Assembly (NCBI GenBank): GCA_016928915.1
Contig: JAFGJT010000011.1
Coordinates: 1-61,709 of the forward strand
Direction of reading: 5' to 3'
DNA: 61,709 nt
Source of the DNA: Candidatus Peregrinibacteria bacterium
Lineage (GTDB): Bacteria; Patescibacteriota; Gracilibacteria; UBA1369; PNNO01
Under the pieces are notes generated by a model that searched no databases, was not told the DNA's origin, and worked only from the letters and a program-made list of their open reading frames with translations. Of the stretch, positions 1,590 to 57,427 are shown piece by piece. A program made the position numbers and the translations under genes. Each line of letters starts with the position of its first letter. Position 1 is the stretch's first letter.

Positions 1590-4259
1590 TTACATTCGAA
1601 GTGGCACTTCAATACCAAGTATTTTTAAGCCCTCGCGCAGCACGCGTGAAACCGCTTTTACTATGTTAAGTCTGGCGAGTTTTACATGTTTTGACTCGGC
1701 CTGAAGCACTGAAACCGAATTGTAAAAATTATTGAATTTTTGCGCGAGCTCGTATAAATAGTTTGATAAAATATTTGGCTTAAACTCATCGGCCGCAAGC
1801 ATCAGGTATTCCTGAAATTTTAAGAGGTCGCGCGCCACCGCCTGCTCGGTCGGGTGTTCAAACGGCTTCAGGCCGTCGTTTATCCCGCCGGCGTTTTCAA
1901 TGGCTTCAAACAAATCTATCTGCGGACTGTTTTCATCAACCTCAACTTTTTTTCTTCCCCTCGGCTGTTTATTCATATCTTTATTCATTTCATCATATTT
2001 CCGTAAAATGCTTTCAGCCCGCGCCGCAGAGTACTGCAAATATGGCGCGCTGTTTCCCTCCACGGAAAGCATTTTATCCCAGTCAAACATTATATCCGTA
2101 AGCCTGTTCTGGCTTAAAATGTTGTATTTGATCGAGCCTATTGCAACCATTCGCGCAACATTTTCTTTTTCTTTTTTCTTTAGCTCCGCGCTTTTTTCCT
2201 CAACTATTTTTAATGCCCTTTCGTATCCCTCTTTTAAAAGATCTTCAAGAAGAATCACATTGCCTTTTCGGGTGCTCATTGACCTGTCGGGCAGGCGCAT
2301 TCTTCCAAATGAAACATGCTCAAACCGGGCGCTTTGGTACCCGAGCATTTTTGCGGTTTCAAAAAGCTGTTTAAAGTGCAGACTCTGCGCCATATCAACA
2401 ACATAAATTATCAGCTGCGGATCCCATCTTTTTATTCTGTAATCAATTGTGGCAAGGTCACGGGTTGAATAAAGGGTTGCGCCATCGGATTTTTTAAGCA
2501 TATATGGCGGCAGATCCGTATTTGCAAATTCCACAATCAAGGCACCGCCCTCCCCCTGTTTTATAACTCCTTTTTTTAGCCCTTCCTCGATAATCGGCTC
2601 CATTTTGTCGTTGTAGTAACTCTCGCCGATATATTCGTCAAAATGAATACCCAAAGTCGCATATGTCTTTTCAAGATCAGCGATACTCAATTCCTTAAAC
2701 CATGTCCAAAGCTCCATGTTTTCCTGATTTCCCTCCTCCATTTTTTTAAATTCCTCGCGCGCCCTGTCTTCAAGAGTTGCGTCCTGCTCGGCTTCCTCGT
2801 GAAATTTTACGTAAAGTTTTAAAAGTTCCGGAACAGGATCTTTTTCTATAATTTTTTTATTGCCCCAATGTTTATAGGCATATATCAATTTGCCGAACTG
2901 CGTTCCCCAGTCCCCAAGGTGATTGTCGCCGATTATTTTATACCCCAGAGCCTTGTAAAGGTTATATAAAGCCTGCCCTATAATTGTTGAAAGAAGATGA
3001 TGCACGCCCAACGGTTTTGCAATATTGGGAGCTGAAAAATCAATTACAACAGTGCTGTTCCCCCCGTAAGTGTTATCGTAAAGCTGCTGCTCCTCGGCGA
3101 AATCTTTAACTTTTATCTGCATCCAGCCCTGCGCGATTTTAATATTTATAAAACCCGGAAGAACCGCTTCCACGCTTCCTATAAACTGAACGGGTTCAAT
3201 ATTTTTTATAATTTCCTCCGCGATTTTTAGCGGCTCTTTTAAAAGCTGCTTGGCCAGTTTTAAAGCTATGGAGCATGCGTAATCACCGTGCTCGGCGTCC
3301 TTGGGGTATTCAACGGCCAGTTCCTGAATGTCGGCTTCGGGAAACGCTTTTTGAGCCGCCTGTTTTAAAACTTCGGTAAGTTTTGCCTTTAAAGTGTATC
3401 TGTCAACCGGACCGGGAAGACCATCGGATGGTTCGGGACCATCGGATGGTGCCGGACCACCGGATGGTGCCGCAGCCTGTATTGCTTCTCCCGTTTCCCC
3501 TGTCCTCTCTTTATACAATTCTTCCTTAATCTCCTGCGGAATTGCTATAATTGCGGTTGTTTGCGGTTTAACGGGCTTTTTATTCTTTGATTCATACTCC
3601 AAAAGACCCGTTACACCAAAATCTTTCTCTTTTCTTGGAAATTTAACTATATCATCCTCGAATTCATCGCCTCCGCAGTATTTTTTAACCATCTGCGCAA
3701 GCTCATGCAGCTGCATTTTCAAGGCTTCATCACTAAAAATCCCCAAATTTTCTATAATAAAAACGGCATTCTTTGTGCTTAAATTAAAAGAACCCCTTTT
3801 AAACTGCTCGCTGTTCCATTTTTTTGTAAGATCATCGCCCTGGTCGCGGTAAAATATGCTTTTTTTGTCGTATTCAAGCACTATATCACCGTAAATATCA
3901 TCAAGGCTGAAGCCTATTACCGGTGCCTGCCATTTGACCATGTAGTAATCGCGTATTCTGCTTAGATTATCCGTAAAAGGCACATCTTTGCCGCTTAATA
4001 CCGAAGAAAGCAGAGATTCAAGGCATGTTTTATATGTTTTGCCTCCTATTTCCTTAAAAACCGTTCTCCAGTTGGATATTTTGGGTTCATTTTCGGGACT
4101 TTTATTTTTATACTGTTTTAAGGTCTGAGCGCGCAGACCGTCAAACAGCTGCTTTAAAGGTGTGCTTTTTCTCGTATTATCGAGCTTTTTCGCCACCAGT
4201 ATCCCGAATGAGAGGGAAGGATATTTTTCGCTTAATTCTTCATTGATAATTAATCTCAT
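1590..4259 (-). CDS. argS: Arginyl-tRNA synthetase fused to an N-terminal B3/B4 domain
   Basis: Class I enzyme charging tRNA-Arg with arginine. The C-terminal ~600 residues are a complete ArgRS: Add-1-type N-domain (about 285-385), Rossmann catalytic core, KMSKS-like MSTRKGN and a DALR anticodon-binding end. The first ~215 residues instead match the B3/B4 fold of the PheRS beta subunit and solo COG3382 proteins (WRTVFKEIGGK; LSRIRDYYMVKWQAPVIGF; NAVFIIENL). A linker with three P-S-D-G-type repeats joins them. The HIGH motif, usually HVGHLRS, reads GVHHLLS (residues 418-424), so the first His and Gly are changed. I chose the ATG at 4259; codons upstream to 4340 are hydrophobic non-conserved sequence. 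The usual ArgRS length is 550-580; this is 889. Confidence 0.93.
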   Translation of the reverse strand: MRLIINEELSEKYPSLSFGILVAKKLDNTRKSTPLKQLFDGLRAQTLKQYKNKSPENEPKISNWRTVFKEIGGKTYKTCLESLLSSVLSGKDVPFTDNLSRIRDYYMVKWQAPVIGFSLDDIYGDIVLEYDKKSIFYRDQGDDLTKKWNSEQFKRGSFNLSTKNAVFIIENLGIFSDEALKMQLHELAQMVKKYCGGDEFEDDIVKFPRKEKDFGVTGLLEYESKNKKPVKPQTTAIIAIPQEIKEELYKERTGETGEAIQAAAPSGGPAPSDGPEPSDGLPGPVDRYTLKAKLTEVLKQAAQKAFPEADIQELAVEYPKDAEHGDYACSIALKLAKQLLKEPLKIAEEIIKNIEPVQFIGSVEAVLPGFINIKIAQGWMQIKVKDFAEEQQLYDNTYGGNSTVVIDFSAPNIAKPLGVHHLLSTIIGQALYNLYKALGYKIIGDNHLGDWGTQFGKLIYAYKHWGNKKIIEKDPVPELLKLYVKFHEEAEQDATLEDRAREEFKKMEEGNQENMELWTWFKELSIADLEKTYATLGIHFDEYIGESYYNDKMEPIIEEGLKKGVIKQGEGGALIVEFANTDLPPYMLKKSDGATLYSTRDLATIDYRIKRWDPQLIIYVVDMAQSLHFKQLFETAKMLGYQSARFEHVSFGRMRLPDRSMSTRKGNVILLEDLLKEGYERALKIVEEKSAELKKKEKENVARMVAIGSIKYNILSQNRLTDIMFDWDKMLSVEGNSAPYLQYSAARAESILRKYDEMNKDMNKQPRGRKKVEVDENSPQIDLFEAIENAGGINDGLKPFEHPTEQAVARDLLKFQEYLMLAADEFKPNILSNYLYELAQKFNNFYNSVSVLQAESKHVKLARLNIVKAVSRVLREGLKILGIEVPLRM
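3414..3467 (-). repeat. Three 18-bp tandem repeats in the argS linker
   Basis: Three in-frame 18-bp units encode PSGGPA, PSDGPE and PSDGLP. Each DNA unit carries the small palindrome CCATCGGATGG or CCACCGGATGG. The unit is a multiple of three, so copy number could vary without breaking the gene. The repeats lie in the linker between the B3/B4 and ArgRS modules. Confidence 0.8.
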
Positions 4260-33205: not shown

Positions 33206-34447
33206 ATGAACGAAAATAAGATGCTAAGAGGCGTGGTTATCGGAGGTTTGTCCGGAGCTGTCTGCGCGGCTTTGGTAAGCCTTGCCGTTATTTATATTGT
33301 ATCGCCCCAGCTGTTAAACAGCGCAAATAATATTGTTTCGGAAACTTCAAAACAACCGGTAAAAGAACAACAGGCTGTTGTGACGGGATCGCAGGAAGAG
33401 CTTGTTGTGCAGGCTGTTGAAAAAGCCGCTCCCGCGGTTGTTTCAATAATAATCACAAAAGATGTGCCTAAGCTGGAGCAATATTTTGAAACATACAAAG
33501 ACCCGTTTTACGATAATTTTTTCGGACCCGGTTTTGGAGGAACCTTTCAGATTCCACAGTATCGTCAGAACGGGACTGAAAAAAAAGAAGTCGGCGGCGG
33601 CAGCGGATTTATAGTTTCATCCGACGGATACATCGTTTCTAACAGACATGTAGTTGACGATGAAACCGCCGAATACACAGTAATTTTAAACGACGGCACA
33701 AAGCATGACGCAAAAATTATTGCGCGCGACAGCATTGAGGATGTCGCCGTTTTAAAAATTGAGGCGACGGATCTGCCGTACTTAAATTTTGGGGATTCTG
33801 AGGGCTTAAAATTGGGACAGAGTGTAATCGCGATAGGAAATCCACTTCTTGAATTCAACAATTCGGTTTCCGTAGGCGTTATTTCAGGGTTATCGCGTTC
33901 AATCACAGCAGGCGGATTATTTACAAAACCCGAAAATCTGGATGATGTAATACAAACCGATGCCGCGATCAATCCCGGAAATTCCGGCGGTCCTCTGCTT
34001 AACTTGAAAGGTGAGGTAATTGGTATGAATGTCGCCATAGCTGACGGGCAGAATATCGGATTCTCATTGCCTTCCAATAATGTTAAAACCATTGTCGAAT
34101 CGGTTAAAGAAACTGGTAAAATTACACGACCGTATTTAGGCTTGAGATATGTTCCGATCACCAAAGAAATAAAAGAATCCAACAAACTGTCAGTGGATTA
34201 CGGAGTGCTTGTTGTAAGGGGCGAAACCGTTTCCGATCTGGCCGTAATACCCGGTTCTCCGGCTGATAAGGCCGGCCTTGCTGAAAACGATATTATTCTT
34301 GAAATAGACGGGGTTAAACTGGAAGAAGGTGTTTCTCTTACAAGAATAATTTCACAGAAAAAAATCGATGATACCGTTACTTTAAAAATTCTTCATAAAG
34401 GGGAAGAAAAAGAAGTAAAAGTTGAATTAAATGAAATGCCGGAGTAA
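33206..34447 (+). CDS. HtrA/DegP-type serine protease
   Basis: Membrane-anchored protease-chaperone of the envelope. Transmembrane helix at about 8-35; trypsin-like domain with His in SNRHVVDD, Asp in IEDVAVLKI and Ser in NPGNSGGPLL; one C-terminal PDZ domain (about 300-410: VIPGSPADKAGLAENDIILEI). 413 residues, standard for a one-PDZ HtrA. Next to hsp20, giving a protein-quality pair. Confidence 0.95.
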   Translation: MNENKMLRGVVIGGLSGAVCAALVSLAVIYIVSPQLLNSANNIVSETSKQPVKEQQAVVTGSQEELVVQAVEKAAPAVVSIIITKDVPKLEQYFETYKDPFYDNFFGPGFGGTFQIPQYRQNGTEKKEVGGGSGFIVSSDGYIVSNRHVVDDETAEYTVILNDGTKHDAKIIARDSIEDVAVLKIEATDLPYLNFGDSEGLKLGQSVIAIGNPLLEFNNSVSVGVISGLSRSITAGGLFTKPENLDDVIQTDAAINPGNSGGPLLNLKGEVIGMNVAIADGQNIGFSLPSNNVKTIVESVKETGKITRPYLGLRYVPITKEIKESNKLSVDYGVLVVRGETVSDLAVIPGSPADKAGLAENDIILEIDGVKLEEGVSLTRIISQKKIDDTVTLKILHKGEEKEVKVELNEMPE

Positions 34448-34457
34448 TTCCAGCCGA

Positions 34458-35123
34458 TTATATTGTCAACAAATTGTCGTTTTGTTTAAGCCATTTTATC
34501 CGGTCCTTGTAATCGGGCAGAATGGCTTTTACTTTTGCCCAGAAATTTTTTGAATGATTAAGGTGCGCGAGGTGCGAAAGCTCGTGGACAATCACATAAT
34601 CTATTACCTCGCGCGGAGTCATTACAAGCCGCCAGCTGAAGTTTATTCTTCTCTTTGAGTTGCATGACCCCCAGCGACGCATCGCGCCTGAAATGCGGAT
34701 TGAAGAAGGATTAAAAGAAAACCGGTCAGCCATAAAGCGAGTGCGCTTAACAACGATTTCTTTCGCCTGTTTTTTATACCAGCCAACGATGTGTTTTTTG
34801 GCTTTGGGAAGCTTTTTTTCGGGGAGATAAAGTTTATCCAGAGCCTGAATGTTTTTAAGGTTTTCGGTTATCTGAAGTTTGTAAGTTTTCCCCAAAAACA
34901 AAAATTCTTCACCGTTAATAAATTGCTTACCCGTTTTTGGTCTTTTTGCCATTTCTTCAAATTTCTTCTGTATCCATCCAAGTTTTTGATTAACCAGGTT
35001 CTGAATATAATCCTCCGAAACGCGAAATGGCGCGCGGATAACCAAAGAAGGTTCTTTTGTTATAACAAGAGAAATAGTGCGCCTTTTTGATCTGATAATT
35101 TTGTAACCGGTAATGCTCCTCAT
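34458..35123 (-). CDS. YgjP-like zinc metallopeptidase (M48/DUF45)
   Basis: 221 residues. The zinc site HELSHLAHLNHS (HExxH plus a further His) and MRRWGSCNSKRRINFSWRLV are diagnostic of the YgjP/SprT-like family. Cytoplasmic, with no signal peptide. Substrate unknown. Follows the HTH-ATPase gene on the same strand with a 10-base gap. Confidence 0.9.
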   Translation of the reverse strand: MRSITGYKIIRSKRRTISLVITKEPSLVIRAPFRVSEDYIQNLVNQKLGWIQKKFEEMAKRPKTGKQFINGEEFLFLGKTYKLQITENLKNIQALDKLYLPEKKLPKAKKHIVGWYKKQAKEIVVKRTRFMADRFSFNPSSIRISGAMRRWGSCNSKRRINFSWRLVMTPREVIDYVIVHELSHLAHLNHSKNFWAKVKAILPDYKDRIKWLKQNDNLLTI

Positions 35124-35133
35124 AATTGTAAAT

Positions 35134-36189
35134 TTATCTACCCTTCTCTGCTTCTGTTATTGCCCTTTCCACCATAAACTTTACACCTTCGTTCATATTG
35201 ATATTTTCAAGTTTTATTTCGGGATGTTTATTGTGAAAAACCCGATAAATTTCATCTGCGAAAGCCTGCCCGACCACCTCGACTTTATTATAATCAAACA
35301 GAACAATTTTAAATTTTTCCAGTCCGGATAAAATACGGCGCGCCTGTGAACGTGATATATGAATGCCTCCGAGGGTATAAAGCTTAACCTGTATTTCGGT
35401 CTTATCAAAGCCATAATTATTACTTCCGTCAATATTGGCATATTCTCTGAAGATTTCACTTAAATGCCGGCTTGATGTTGTTTTTATACTAAATCTCACT
35501 TTTGTTCCTTTTTTCATTTTTTTAACTTTTTGGACAAAAATATCCGGAAGTGTGTTATTGAAAATAAGTTCATAACCATAACTATCCAGAATAAAATTAT
35601 CTGCGACCCTGGAAGTAAAAAAGATACCTTCGCCCGAATGGGATTTTGGCATAGTTGTAACTTTACCCTTTAAAAGCTCTTGAATTGCCTCAAGCTCGGA
35701 ATTTAAATGCTTTTTATTCATAATACTTTTAAACACCCCTATCCCGGAATCATTCACTGAAAAAGACAATATCTCATCGCGAATAGAGACTTCAACAGAT
35801 ATAAACCTGGACCGTGAGTGTTCAATTGCATTATTAAACATTTCCGAAAAAGCATATGTAAAAATACTTTTCACATTTTCAAATAATTTTTTAAGTAAAG
35901 GCGATTTTCTTTCAATTTCATCAAAAACCTTGTGCTCTTCCAGTGAAGAATTTTTATATATCTTCTTATAACACACAGGAAAAATTTCCTGATGATTCTC
36001 GGCATATTCGGGAAGCACATAGAAAGATTTCCGGGTTGAACCGATTTTGAGAAGCTTTCCTTCTGAAACAAGAATTTTAATAAGGTGGCTTGCATATTGC
36101 CTGGATACACTAAAAAAAACGGCAATCTTCATTGTTTCCACTTGTCCTTCGGTTTTCGCAATCTCCAGTATTTTTTCTTTATTCAACAT
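35134..36189 (-). CDS. HTH - HATPase - STAS-like (DUF4325) regulator
   Basis: Three parts: a winged-HTH-like N-terminus (about 1-60: MKIAVFFSVSRQYASHLIKIL), a GHKL ATPase (about 95-240) with N-box EMFNNAIEHS, G1 NDSGIG and G2 SGEG, and a STAS-like DUF4325 domain (about 255-345: YGFDKTEIQVKLYTLGG; ISRSQARRILSGLEKF). The ATPase resembles anti-sigma kinases such as SpoIIAB, and STAS domains are their usual partners; here both are joined to a DNA-binding head. No receiver or membrane segment, so it may act as a one-protein switch. ATG at 36189 is chosen (TTG at 36201 lies in the promoter repeats). Confidence 0.8.
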   Translation of the reverse strand: MLNKEKILEIAKTEGQVETMKIAVFFSVSRQYASHLIKILVSEGKLLKIGSTRKSFYVLPEYAENHQEIFPVCYKKIYKNSSLEEHKVFDEIERKSPLLKKLFENVKSIFTYAFSEMFNNAIEHSRSRFISVEVSIRDEILSFSVNDSGIGVFKSIMNKKHLNSELEAIQELLKGKVTTMPKSHSGEGIFFTSRVADNFILDSYGYELIFNNTLPDIFVQKVKKMKKGTKVRFSIKTTSSRHLSEIFREYANIDGSNNYGFDKTEIQVKLYTLGGIHISRSQARRILSGLEKFKIVLFDYNKVEVVGQAFADEIYRVFHNKHPEIKLENINMNEGVKFMVERAITEAEKGR

Positions 36190-36288
36190 ATTGTAAATCA
36201 ATTGTAAACCAACTATCGTTTAATTGTCAAGCAATTGTCAACTAGCTACCGTTCGATTGTAAACTAATTGTAAAGTAATCTAGTCCGA
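36190..36288 (-). repeat. Three 33-bp tandem repeats, each with two 11-bp boxes (putative operator array)
   Basis: Units at 36190-36222, 36223-36255 and 36256-36288. Read on the minus strand each has an 11-base spacer plus two boxes TNNTTKACAAT, where K is T in the outer units and G in the middle one. Six boxes are thus spaced 11 or 22 bases apart, on one face of the helix. Two spacers share YRAACGRTAGY. The array abuts the ATG of the HTH-ATPase gene and contains its probable promoter. Confidence 0.88.
36201..36230 (-). promoter_or_regulatory. Probable promoter inside the repeat array
   Basis: On the minus strand TTGACA (36230-36225) and TACAAT (36206-36201) are 18 bases apart, both made from repeat boxes. 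The transcript would start only a few bases before the ATG, so it would be nearly leaderless. Confidence 0.55.
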
Positions 36289-36300
36289 TAATGGCATAAT

Positions 36301-37548
36301 TTATTTCATTAAAATTTCCTCAATCTTCATCAGCCTGTTGTATTTGCATACTCTTTCGCCTCTTACAAGCGAGCCGGTTTTGATGAGCGGACAATTTAAA
36401 CCCACCGAGAGATCTGCGATAAAAGTGTCTGTGGTTTCGCCGGAACGATGCGATACAAACGGCTTCCAGCCCTGTTTTTTTGTCATTTCAACTGCTTCTA
36501 TGGTTTCGCTTACGGACCCGATCTGATTAAGTTTTATAAGAACCGAATTTACAGCCTGTTTTTCAATCGCCTCTTTGATTCTTTTAATATTTGTAACAAG
36601 AAGATCGTCACCGACAATTGTAATTTTTGAGCCCGCTTTTTGCGTGAAATTTTTAAATCCGTCCCAGTCGTCCTCCGCATGGCTGTCTTCAATAAGTATT
36701 ATGGGATATTTGTTTATAAGCTCTTCGTACCATACTGAAAGCTCGTCGGATGACAGTACTTTTTGTTCGCCGTTTATTTTTAAATTATATTTCCCGTTTT
36801 CATAAAAACTTGATGCTGCGATATCCATTCCGATTTTTACATCATCGGTTGAATACCCGGCTTCTTTTATCGCCTGCACCATTAAATCCAAAGCTTCTTC
36901 GTTTGATGAAAGTTTTGGCGCGAAGCCGCCTTCATCTCCCACGCTTACAGTGTATCCTTTGCCTTTTAAAATTCCTTTAAGGGTCATTATAATTTCGGCG
37001 CCCGCGCGGATTTTTTCTTTAAAACTCGGGTAATTCACAGGGGCAAGCATGAATTCCTGTACATCCAGTCCGCTGTCAGCGTGCTTTCCGCCGTTGATAA
37101 TATTAAGCATTGGCTGCGGCAGATTGAAATTTGTGTTGCCGGTGATTTTAGCCAGATATTCGTAAAGCTCGATTCCCCGCTCCATTGCGCTCACTTTTGC
37201 GAATGCCATTGAAACGCCAAGAATAGCGTTTGCTCCAAGTTTTGATTTATTTTCGGTGCCGTCCATATCAATTAAAAATTTATCAAGCGAATTCTGGTCG
37301 AATTCTTTATTTATAATATTTTGGGCGATCACCTTATTTACATTTTCAACCGCTTTTAAAACTCCCGCGCCTTTAAAGCGACTTTTATCGCCGTCGCGAA
37401 GCTCGAGAGCCTCGTGAATGCCCGTTGACGCGCCCGAAGGCACTGACGCTGTTGCGGTATAGCTGCCAATTTGTAAATCAACTTCAATTGTCGGGTTCCC
37501 TCTGGAATCCAGGATTTCTCTTGCGAAAACAGATGTGATTTTTGACAT
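36301..37548 (-). CDS. eno: Enolase
   Basis: Converts 2-phosphoglycerate to PEP in glycolysis. 415 residues, normal. Marks: ARQILDSRGNPT-like EILDSRGNPTIEVD, GGKHADSGLDVQE, the catalytic GDEGGFAP, LIKLNQIGS and SHRSGETTDTFIADL. tRNA-Pro ends only 20 bases upstream on the same strand, leaving no room for a separate promoter. Confidence 0.97.
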   Translation of the reverse strand: MSKITSVFAREILDSRGNPTIEVDLQIGSYTATASVPSGASTGIHEALELRDGDKSRFKGAGVLKAVENVNKVIAQNIINKEFDQNSLDKFLIDMDGTENKSKLGANAILGVSMAFAKVSAMERGIELYEYLAKITGNTNFNLPQPMLNIINGGKHADSGLDVQEFMLAPVNYPSFKEKIRAGAEIIMTLKGILKGKGYTVSVGDEGGFAPKLSSNEEALDLMVQAIKEAGYSTDDVKIGMDIAASSFYENGKYNLKINGEQKVLSSDELSVWYEELINKYPIILIEDSHAEDDWDGFKNFTQKAGSKITIVGDDLLVTNIKRIKEAIEKQAVNSVLIKLNQIGSVSETIEAVEMTKKQGWKPFVSHRSGETTDTFIADLSVGLNCPLIKTGSLVRGERVCKYNRLMKIEEILMK

Positions 37549-37568
37549 TTATTTGTGTGGTTAATAAA

Positions 37569-37645
37569 TGGTCGGAGTGGCGGGACTTGAACCCGCGACC
37601 TCAAGCACCCCATGCTTGCGCGCTAGCCAACTACGCTACACCCCG
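37569..37645 (-). tRNA. tRNA-Pro (anticodon GGG)
   Basis: Minus strand: acceptor CGGGGTG/CACTCCG (one G-U pair), discriminator A and encoded CCA. The anticodon stem-loop CAAGC-ATGGGGT-GCTTG gives GGG. T-loop GGTTCAAGTCC. Located 20 bases upstream of eno. Confidence 0.93.
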
Positions 37646-37667
37646 ACATTATTTTGTCCTTAAACAG

Positions 37668-37695
37668 ATTGACTTTTCTTGCCCTTGAAGTCAAT
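37668..37695. promoter_or_regulatory. Inverted repeat upstream of tRNA-Pro/eno
   Basis: ATTGACTT and AAGTCAAT are perfect 8-bp arms around a 12-base loop. The right arm holds a TTGACT -35 for the minus strand. It may be the control site of the tRNA-Pro-eno transcript. Confidence 0.4.
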
Positions 37696-37755
37696 AATTT
37701 TTTGGATTTTTTTGCATGCAAAATTTAAATTAATATCCGACATAATTTAAAAAAA

Positions 37756-55207: not shown

Positions 55208-57427
55208 TTATTCACCGCTTGCTGAAGGCCCCACCATGATTTTGGCGGGAACAGCTTTATAAACACTGTCGATACGTTCTTTTATCGTTTCTCCGTTTTT
55301 GGTTATGTAGCGGTACCAGGTTGCACTAAAGCCTGTATGCGCGTTTTCAACCTGTTTGCGGGCTCCGGGGGCCATGCCGGGAGACTCAATAATTATAGCG
55401 GGACCGGGGCTGTGATAGCCGTATGTATAAGGTCCTTCCATTTCAATTTTTCTGTTGTCATCAGTGCCGTAAAATTTATAAAAAGCTTTTACGCCGTCCG
55501 TATAGGACTGCACAAGAACGTATCCGGAGGTGTCGTTGATAAATTTTAAATCGCGCACCCCGGGGTAAATTGTGGAATCCAGACCGTACCCGTATATCTG
55601 CGCATAATACGATACCGCGTAAGAATGCGGCGCTCTTTCTACAATCGGGAATCCGGCAAGCAGCGCGGCCCTGTACATTGTTGATGAAACCTGGCACAGC
55701 CCTCCGCCGTATTCGGGAATTGTGCCTTCGGCTTTAATAACGAGCTCGGGCCTGTATCCTGTTGACGCATCCACCGGACCAAGGTGTTCGTTAAATGAAA
55801 AAGTTTCGCCGGGAGCTATTAATGTTCCGTTAAATCTGTTCATGCCCACATTAATATTGTAGATACGGTTTGTGGGGGATCCGGCAAACGCGCTGCGGCC
55901 TGTTGCAATTAAAGTTTTAATTCCCATATCCTGAAGCTCCTCTGAAGTCTGTACCTGTGCCTTTTTTTCGGCAACCGGAATATTTATATCTTCAATATTG
56001 TTGTTTACGGCTTCTTCAAGAGCGCTTATTAAAAACCTTTTGATTATTTTTCTGCCGTTTTCTCCTTTGCCGTTAAAAATTATTTCTCCTTTTTCATTTT
56101 TATATATTTCAACATCCTGCGGTTCGGACTCGATGTCCGGCACGATTTTTTCATCCACCCATGCTTCAAAAGGATTTGAGTTTATATGTATGCGCAGTTT
56201 TTTCTCGATTAAAAAAGGAGGCTGTAAATTTGCAGATGCCGTAGCGATAGCGGTCGTTTCAATCGGAAAAGTATAAAGGTCCCCGATTTTTAATTCATCT
56301 TTATAGTCAAATTTTACCCAGTCAAGATGATCTATCAGTTTTATAGTGTACGTGAAATTTTCGTATTCAAGAAAAGTTTTTTTATTGAGCGTTTCTTTAA
56401 TTGCGGACAGCTCCTCTTCAAGAGTTGTTTGCGTGACAAGGGGATTGTCGTCAACAAGTATAATATTTACCGGCTCGGCCGAAAGCTCACGGGCGTTTTG
56501 TTTGATGTCAAAATATAAAGTTCTTAAATCAATCGCTTTCCCTGATTTTTCCGGAACAATTGTAAGGGTGTTGTTTTCAAAAGCCAGATAAGCGTTGGAT
56601 GATTTTTTTTCGTCAAAATTAAATTTAAACTCAATATTTTTCACGGCGGTATTAAGATCAACCGAAACATAATAAGGAGCCTCGGAGGGGGATATAAGGC
56701 TCTGGATCACTTCGAGGCCGCTTGTGCGGCCGAATTTAATAAACTCAATATCCTGCAGGGTTCTGCGCGCATCAAGCCCGATCCCAAGTTCGTTCGGAGC
56801 AAATTCCAAAGTTGTATTGTCAAGGTTTATCGGGATTTTGCTATCAATAAAAGGTGTGCCTTTTTGCATCAGCTTATTCTGAATTTCATCAACCGTTAAA
56901 AGGCCGACATCCATGCCGGCGACTCGCGTGCCCGGCATTGATTTATTATCGAGTTCAAGCGTCAGCAGAAGGGAGGCTGCAAAAAAAATAAGCGCGATCC
57001 CGAGCAGAGAAAAACCAATAATCACGGGGATTCTCAGGTTTATGGCCAGTATTTTATATATTGCGCGCAACTGCACTAATTTTGACTCTTTGGCCCGTGC
57101 CTGGGTTTCTGCCTGGGCTGCGGCTTGAATTTGCTCCTTGCTTTCGGTCTTGGTCTTGCCTTGATTTTGAATTTTGGCTGCGGCTTGAGTGGGCTGCTGC
57201 GGAACCTCTGTCTTTTTTTTAAATAATTTTAAAGAAGGTATTTGTATTTTAAACGACTTTTTTTGCTGTTTTTCCTTTTGGGTTTGTTTTGCGGTTTGCT
57301 TTTTGGATTGTTTTTTGTGCTTGCGTTTTTTTAAAGGCGGATTTTCTAAAACAGCCGCGCTTTTTTTTGCGGCAGGTTTGGCTGTTTTTTTAGCCTTGTA
57401 CTTCTGTTTCTTCTTTTTTTTAGCCAT
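55208..57427 (-). CDS. VanW family protein with peptidoglycan-binding-like repeats
   Basis: 739 residues. A long Lys/Gln-rich cytoplasmic head (about 1-120), one transmembrane helix (VIIGFSLLGIALIFFAASLLL), two PG_binding_4-like segments (about 165-480) and a VanW domain (about 500-660: GRSAFAGSPTNRIYNINVG; FSFNEHLGPVDAS; GGGLCQVSSTMYRAALLAG). A beta-rich G5-like end follows. VanW proteins are linked to wall binding and some antibiotic-resistance clusters; the activity is unproven. Confidence 0.9.
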   Translation of the reverse strand: MAKKKKKQKYKAKKTAKPAAKKSAAVLENPPLKKRKHKKQSKKQTAKQTQKEKQQKKSFKIQIPSLKLFKKKTEVPQQPTQAAAKIQNQGKTKTESKEQIQAAAQAETQARAKESKLVQLRAIYKILAINLRIPVIIGFSLLGIALIFFAASLLLTLELDNKSMPGTRVAGMDVGLLTVDEIQNKLMQKGTPFIDSKIPINLDNTTLEFAPNELGIGLDARRTLQDIEFIKFGRTSGLEVIQSLISPSEAPYYVSVDLNTAVKNIEFKFNFDEKKSSNAYLAFENNTLTIVPEKSGKAIDLRTLYFDIKQNARELSAEPVNIILVDDNPLVTQTTLEEELSAIKETLNKKTFLEYENFTYTIKLIDHLDWVKFDYKDELKIGDLYTFPIETTAIATASANLQPPFLIEKKLRIHINSNPFEAWVDEKIVPDIESEPQDVEIYKNEKGEIIFNGKGENGRKIIKRFLISALEEAVNNNIEDINIPVAEKKAQVQTSEELQDMGIKTLIATGRSAFAGSPTNRIYNINVGMNRFNGTLIAPGETFSFNEHLGPVDASTGYRPELVIKAEGTIPEYGGGLCQVSSTMYRAALLAGFPIVERAPHSYAVSYYAQIYGYGLDSTIYPGVRDLKFINDTSGYVLVQSYTDGVKAFYKFYGTDDNRKIEMEGPYTYGYHSPGPAIIIESPGMAPGARKQVENAHTGFSATWYRYITKNGETIKERIDSVYKAVPAKIMVGPSASGE

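Follow-up and report, generated by a model that had tools for sequence, protein, structure and literature searches.

An array of helically phased direct repeats placed before the gene appears to be a family trait of genes that join a winged helix-turn-helix (wHTH), a GHKL ATPase and a STAS-like DUF4325 domain, and its occurrence throughout the family, in several phyla, emerges here as new. The gene from which we started lies in a 61,709-nucleotide stretch of DNA of a Candidatus Peregrinibacteria bacterium (contig JAFGJT010000011.1; hereafter the window). That its protein binds the array and hence regulates itself, as an earlier note on this DNA had proposed, is strongly supported by comparison, because the array is family-wide, the boxes covary with the HTH, box pairs cluster at the gene and the neighbouring genes are not conserved. 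The features of the locus are as follows.

34458..35123, minus strand: ORF for a putative YgjP-like (HExxH) metallohydrolase; downstream neighbour, 10 bp past the stop of the wHTH/GHKL/DUF4325 gene
35134..36189, minus strand: wHTH/GHKL ATPase/DUF4325 gene; 351 amino acids, ATG at 36189, stop ending at 35134
35137..35469, minus strand: DUF4325 STAS-like domain, residues ~241-351 (PF14213 match, fragment model)
35470..35964, minus strand: GHKL (SpoIIAB-like) ATPase domain, residues ~76-240 (Pfam, SpoIIAB fold match, invariant residues)
36004..36189, minus strand: winged HTH, residues ~1-62, recognition helix ~30-42 (AF2 topology, weak profile matches, box covariation)
36190..36274, minus strand: operator array of six head-to-tail TNNTTKACAAT boxes (sequence, TRF, genome and family comparison)
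36190-36200, 36201-36211, 36223-36233, 36234-36244, 36256-36266 and 36267-36277, minus strand: the boxes with their flanking TNN
36201..36230, minus strand: likely core promoter TTGACA-18-TACAAT (11/12 consensus match; conserved boxes in 19 close relatives)

Read 5' to 3' on the minus strand, the array is TACTTTACAAT TAGTTTACAAT CGAACGGTAGC TAGTTGACAAT TGCTTGACAAT TAAACGATAGT TGGTTTACAAT TGATTTACAAT ATG. As described in the earlier note, it contains six exact copies of TNNTTKACAAT in gene orientation, at offsets of 11 and 22 bp and abutting the ATG; the boxes form pairs 11 bp apart which recur every 33 bp. Of the three 33-bp repeats said to reach 36288, the period holds (TRF: 36190-36274, period 33, 2.6 copies) and the extent was slightly generous, because conservation is poor in the last part of the third unit (36275-36288). 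Chance is not a sufficient explanation of the array, since the only three exact TTKACAATN3TTKACAAT pairs of the 1.13-Mb genome all fall within 85 bp at this site. A search of the window that tolerated up to three mismatches returned 20 matches compared with 7.7 ± 2.4 in shuffled sequence. Rfam matches near the gene are confined to two tRNAs. Further tandem repeats of the window are located at 3419-3472 (18-bp x3, 91% match) and 57275-57330 (24-bp x2.2).

The proposal that boxes make up the -35 and -10 of the likely promoter fits the sequence. The top sigma-70-like match in 34300-37700 is TTGACA-18-TACAAT (11/12). Each hexamer falls within a box, the perfect -35 (TTGACA) within one and the -10 (TACAAT), 18 bp further along, within another. 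Among 19 close relatives conservation is highest in the -35 box (TTGACAAT) and in the TTTACAAT box that lies 22 bp further along. Transcription is predicted to start a few bases before the ATG, which would make the transcript near-leaderless. This geometry bears on the sign of regulation. A positive autoregulator or bistable switch, in which bound protein would recruit polymerase and lock the gene on, seems rather improbable to us. Boxes are indeed found upstream, at positions typical of activators, a third, distal pair is present in the window, and 11-bp direct repeats recall activator arrays of the PhoB/PhoP kind. However, occlusion is favoured by the coincidence of the conserved boxes with the -35, the -10 and the start region, and the -35 is perfect, so that an activator is not needed.

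Comparison of the regions upstream of homologues, one of the checks proposed in the earlier note, extended the array to the family, and the note's refuting condition of homologues that lack the repeats did not overturn its reading. Phased repeats (11, 21/22, 32/33 or 43/44 bp) precede 53 of 55 homologues, compared with 14 at control lags, and the only peaks in the autocorrelation of these 55 regions are at 11-12, 21-22, 32-33 and 43-44 bp. Set against shuffled sequence, repeats at 11, 22 and 33 bp occur in 36 (4.0 shuffled), 29 (2.7) and 31 (3.5) of them, respectively. Among Acidobacteriota 11 of 12 regions carry a phased repeat, compared with 2 at control lags, and the boxes (GTTGACAAT or TTGACG) are 21-22 bp apart. 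Lachnospiraceae have 21-bp repeats of other boxes, with 9 of 16 regions positive at lag 21 (2.0 expected) and the excess confined to lags of 21 and 42 bp; pooled over phased and control lags, the difference in this group is unconvincing (12/16 versus 10/16). A clear array was not apparent in this group, to which the cultivable carrier Mediterraneibacter agrestimuris belongs. The box itself changes from subgroup to subgroup, TTKACAAT being accompanied by TAACATAGA (loci L058 and L063), CTTTACAAC (L062), GTTTACATT (L061), GTTGATAAT (L067), GTTGACAAT (L029) and others.

Divergence of the boxes provides a clue to their reader. With the rest of the protein controlled for, distance between boxes correlates with distance between HTH regions (partial Mantel r 0.46, p ~0.0005); in the reverse test, box against rest of protein with the HTH controlled for, r is -0.01. 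Six of the 55 homologues were omitted from these tests because their boxes were weak or out of place or their HTH was truncated. Because box distance tracks the HTH and not the rest of the protein, the comparison points to the HTH as the part that reads the boxes.

The array seems to be addressed by its own gene only. Of the 22 box pairs (up to one mismatch) in ten other carrier genomes, 17 are located at the gene, the reversed control pattern giving 0, and the remaining five, from two genomes, look like AT-rich low-complexity sequence. Searches of the window's own genome for pairs at 11 and 22 bp with up to two mismatches yielded background only beyond the array, and no convincing second target. 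Genuine targets elsewhere with a single box or degenerate boxes might escape a search for pairs. A search of 380 genomes of the phylum gave 10 exact pairs at a distance from any intact gene, compared with 7 control hits. At one of the ten (L177; G341:C17, ~3738, minus strand) an intact three-box array is followed directly by ~22 C-terminal codons, the middle of the gene being gone; this locus is a decayed copy that has retained the array. Two more of the ten are array-like box pairs in another genome (G300), where the homologue search found none (L175:6845 and L176:4913). One, with three boxes, directly precedes a gene for an NYN-domain protein and the other a Phd-type antitoxin and PIN/VapC gene, these family names having been assigned by eye. 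The two pairs may be true targets, relics or chance occurrences.

Such sites, and the genes that adjoin the family, are relevant to the idea that the protein is a local controller of cargo genes in the style of CapK/CapS, CapW/BrxR or restriction-modification C proteins, repressing its own promoter together with genes reached by read-through. The logic of CapK/CapS is close, the G300 sites precede an NYN gene and a Phd/VapC pair, and defence or nuclease genes occur among the neighbours, namely type I restriction genes at L009 and L004, one DRT-type match, and the YgjP gene of the window. Nevertheless, we regard cargo control as unlikely, since any one neighbour family is seen at about two homologue loci at most, the nearest downstream ORF is often on the opposite strand (L002, L003, L008, L021, L024, L025), and genuine defence neighbours are few, their enrichment not being clear. 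PADLOC assigned the gene to no family. At L009 the family gene is placed between type I restriction genes (HsdR/HsdM), and at L004 it follows an EcoEI-type R gene. In the window genome only, the YgjP gene is possibly co-transcribed with the wHTH/GHKL/DUF4325 gene; at the enolase loci of 19 other genomes neither gene is found adjoining, these relatives being too distant for an empty-site comparison.

Phased, iteron-like repeats and patchy presence would also be expected of a partition or replication site of a mobile element, with the array serving a binding protein and not a promoter, and the HTH has weak profile similarity to the plasmid partition protein AspA. We consider this highly improbable. 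The family consists of a single gene on chromosomal contigs, and neither a partner NTPase nor an integrase adjoins it; homologues were absent from 72,556 plasmids, 50,697 phages and viral contigs in a search whose plasmid part recovered a positive control protein, and the conserved array had no exact match in viral contigs. Moreover, the boxes coincide with promoter hexamers.

The reading of the protein as HTH, GHKL ATPase and STAS-like DUF4325 domain is supported by Pfam, by an AF2 model and by fold matches. A Pfam search of the 351-residue protein placed DUF4325 (PF14213) above its gathering score (E=1.1e-10, 41.5 bits versus a cut-off of 23) and HATPase_c just below (E 1e-5, 26.1 bits; cut-off 26.4), with HATPase_c_2 also matched; the HTH was not recognised in this search, and the N-terminus gave weak MarR, AspA and IclR profile matches. 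The AF2 model, built from 32 homologues (mean pLDDT 88), combines wHTH topology in residues 1-58 with a GHKL domain and, at the C-terminus, an alpha/beta domain. Its N-terminal elements (H4-14, H19-25, H30-42, E47-49, E56-58) form a wHTH fold predicted with high confidence, in agreement with the DNA-binding N-terminus assumed in the earlier note. SpoIIAB is the top Foldseek match of the whole model (TM 0.78 by target length). For a fragment model of the DUF4325 part (pLDDT 79) the best PDB matches are RsbS and SpoIIAA, at TM ~0.5-0.57 and weak (best E 0.02).

The ATP site of the protein is strictly conserved. The Bergerat motifs (N box, DxGxG, GxG) are invariant or nearly so in 69 homologues, and E116, N120, D147, G149, G151, G186 and T229 are invariant in all 69. 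Given this invariance, nucleotide binding presumably matters to the protein. T264, R280 and S281 in the DUF4325 part are likewise invariant. By contrast, the equivalent of the SpoIIAA phospho-serine (Ser58), placed with some uncertainty by alignment and by eye from the helix start, is Ala in 48, Gly in 18 and Ser in 2 of 69 homologues, and Ala309 in the window protein. These residues weigh on the idea of a cis-fused phospho-switch, in which the GHKL domain would phosphorylate DUF4325, in the same or an adjacent chain, and thereby free the DNA, or of an anti-sigma kinase directed at a separate STAS protein. The SpoIIAB-like fold, the STAS-like domain in the same chain and the invariant S281 and T264 speak for it, as does the presence of two ordinary STAS proteins in the same genome. 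Because the usual STAS phospho-serine is missing (Ala or Gly in 66/69), a SpoIIAA/CapS-type switch in cis is unlikely and phosphorylation of the classical serine is disfavoured, leaving S281 and T264 as the conserved candidate hydroxyls. The interpretation in the earlier note is thus supported in part: its second half, in which the ATPase and STAS halves would sense a signal or sequester a partner as in anti-sigma switches, may hold, and the missing serine counts against the classical phospho-serine version of it. As to a partner in trans, both STAS proteins adjoin RsbW-like and SpoIIE-like genes of their own. Taken together, we find either form of the switch distinctly improbable. The two STAS genes (G000:C7:59281-59580, L172, and C8:27995-28291, L173) are situated one beside an RsbW-like HATPase gene and one beside a SpoIIE/PP2C-like phosphatase gene, and these loci appear to be separate partner-switching modules.

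The explanation that we favour, and believe to be probably correct, is that the protein is a solitary, self-contained autorepressor whose operator is its promoter and whose DNA binding is gated by ATP. The N-terminal winged HTH would bind the TTKACAAT box, and several protomers would line up head to tail on one helix face across their own promoter. With the -35 and the -10 each formed by a box, the promoter could be occupied by the protein or by RNA polymerase but not by both; since bound protein must then compete with polymerase, negative autoregulation, which would hold synthesis low, is the simplest reading. The GHKL domain would bind ATP, and its nucleotide or ligand state, relayed via the STAS-like domain, would set the assembly of protomers on the array. 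A signal that frees the array would let the protein accumulate. Because a second target was not found and the neighbours are not conserved, the protein itself is probably the output, and it may act on a widely conserved cellular partner, that is, a host factor. In this scheme binding of the array is deduced from covariation, and the sign of regulation, ATP gating, the signal and the partner are inferred as well; the sign could be positive instead.

The family is scattered. In the window's phylum 37 of 380 genomes have a homologue at E<=0.001 (~25 substantial, in patchy distribution), as do 23 of 200 Lachnospiraceae (~16 substantial) and 12 of 199 Acidobacteriota; single copies or pairs occur in Chloroflexota, Pseudomonadota and Margulisbacteria. 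In the tree the one from Margulisbacteria falls together with an Uhrbacteria copy (support 99/95), which is consistent with transfer, a binning error being the alternative. A description of the family was not found in a search of the open-access literature for DUF4325 or the domain combination. It is tempting to speculate, although here we are tentative, that these genes represent an undescribed family of transferable, self-addressed one-gene switches, in which a single chain unites a sensor, an ATPase, a STAS and a DNA-binding part. They would control virtually nothing besides their own promoter, by way of a private, helically phased operator that serves as promoter as well and whose sequence diverges together with the HTH, the protein being the output. 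A lone regulator that is kept in some small-genome Patescibacteria without an evident regulon is a puzzle. The family also offers ~80 natural pairs of protein and operator whose boxes and recognition helices have diverged in concert while the helical phase stayed fixed, a set that is usable for the recognition code of winged HTHs and for insulated genetic switches.

Several known systems share parts of this design. CapW/BrxR and C proteins are autoregulators, wHTH regulators that repress their own promoter and control adjacent defence genes; they differ from the window protein in having neither a GHKL nor a STAS domain. In PhoB/PhoP-type arrays, 11-bp direct repeats are bound head to tail. The direct repeats at one helical turn and the TTNACA-like half-sites are common to both, whereas the window protein is unrelated, lacks a receiver domain and has a private operator instead of a regulon. 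With SpoIIAB/SpoIIAA (RsbW/RsbV) it shares the GHKL fold and probably a STAS-like domain, but it fuses both with an HTH in one chain and lacks the phospho-serine.

Nearest in logic is CapK/CapS (2026), which combines HTH, GHKL and STAS parts with autoregulation (PMC13373217), as the window protein probably does. In CapK/CapS, with which VapKSC is grouped, an HTH-STAS-GHKL kinase and a STAS-wHTH repressor control immune operons; the CapS-type repressor binds cooperatively at its own promoter, overlapping the -10, and is autoregulated (PMC13373217). These systems comprise two or three genes with palindromic TTAA sites, a conserved phospho-serine and immune or toxin cargo, capK being followed directly by capS and usually by an immune operon downstream; CapK/CapS is activated by single-stranded DNA (PMC13373217). 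The window family, by contrast, is a single chain in the order HTH-GHKL-STAS instead of HTH-STAS-GHKL, with direct phased repeats and without phospho-serine, cargo or conserved neighbour. On the basis of domain order, single chain, direct sites, missing phospho-serine and absent cargo we do not count it as a member of CapK/CapS, and it is set apart from CapK by description, domain order and sites. The missing phospho-serine therefore raises the question of how a GHKL/STAS module signals without that phosphorylation, and the family extends the GHKL/STAS logic recently described in CapK/CapS by a variant fused in cis.
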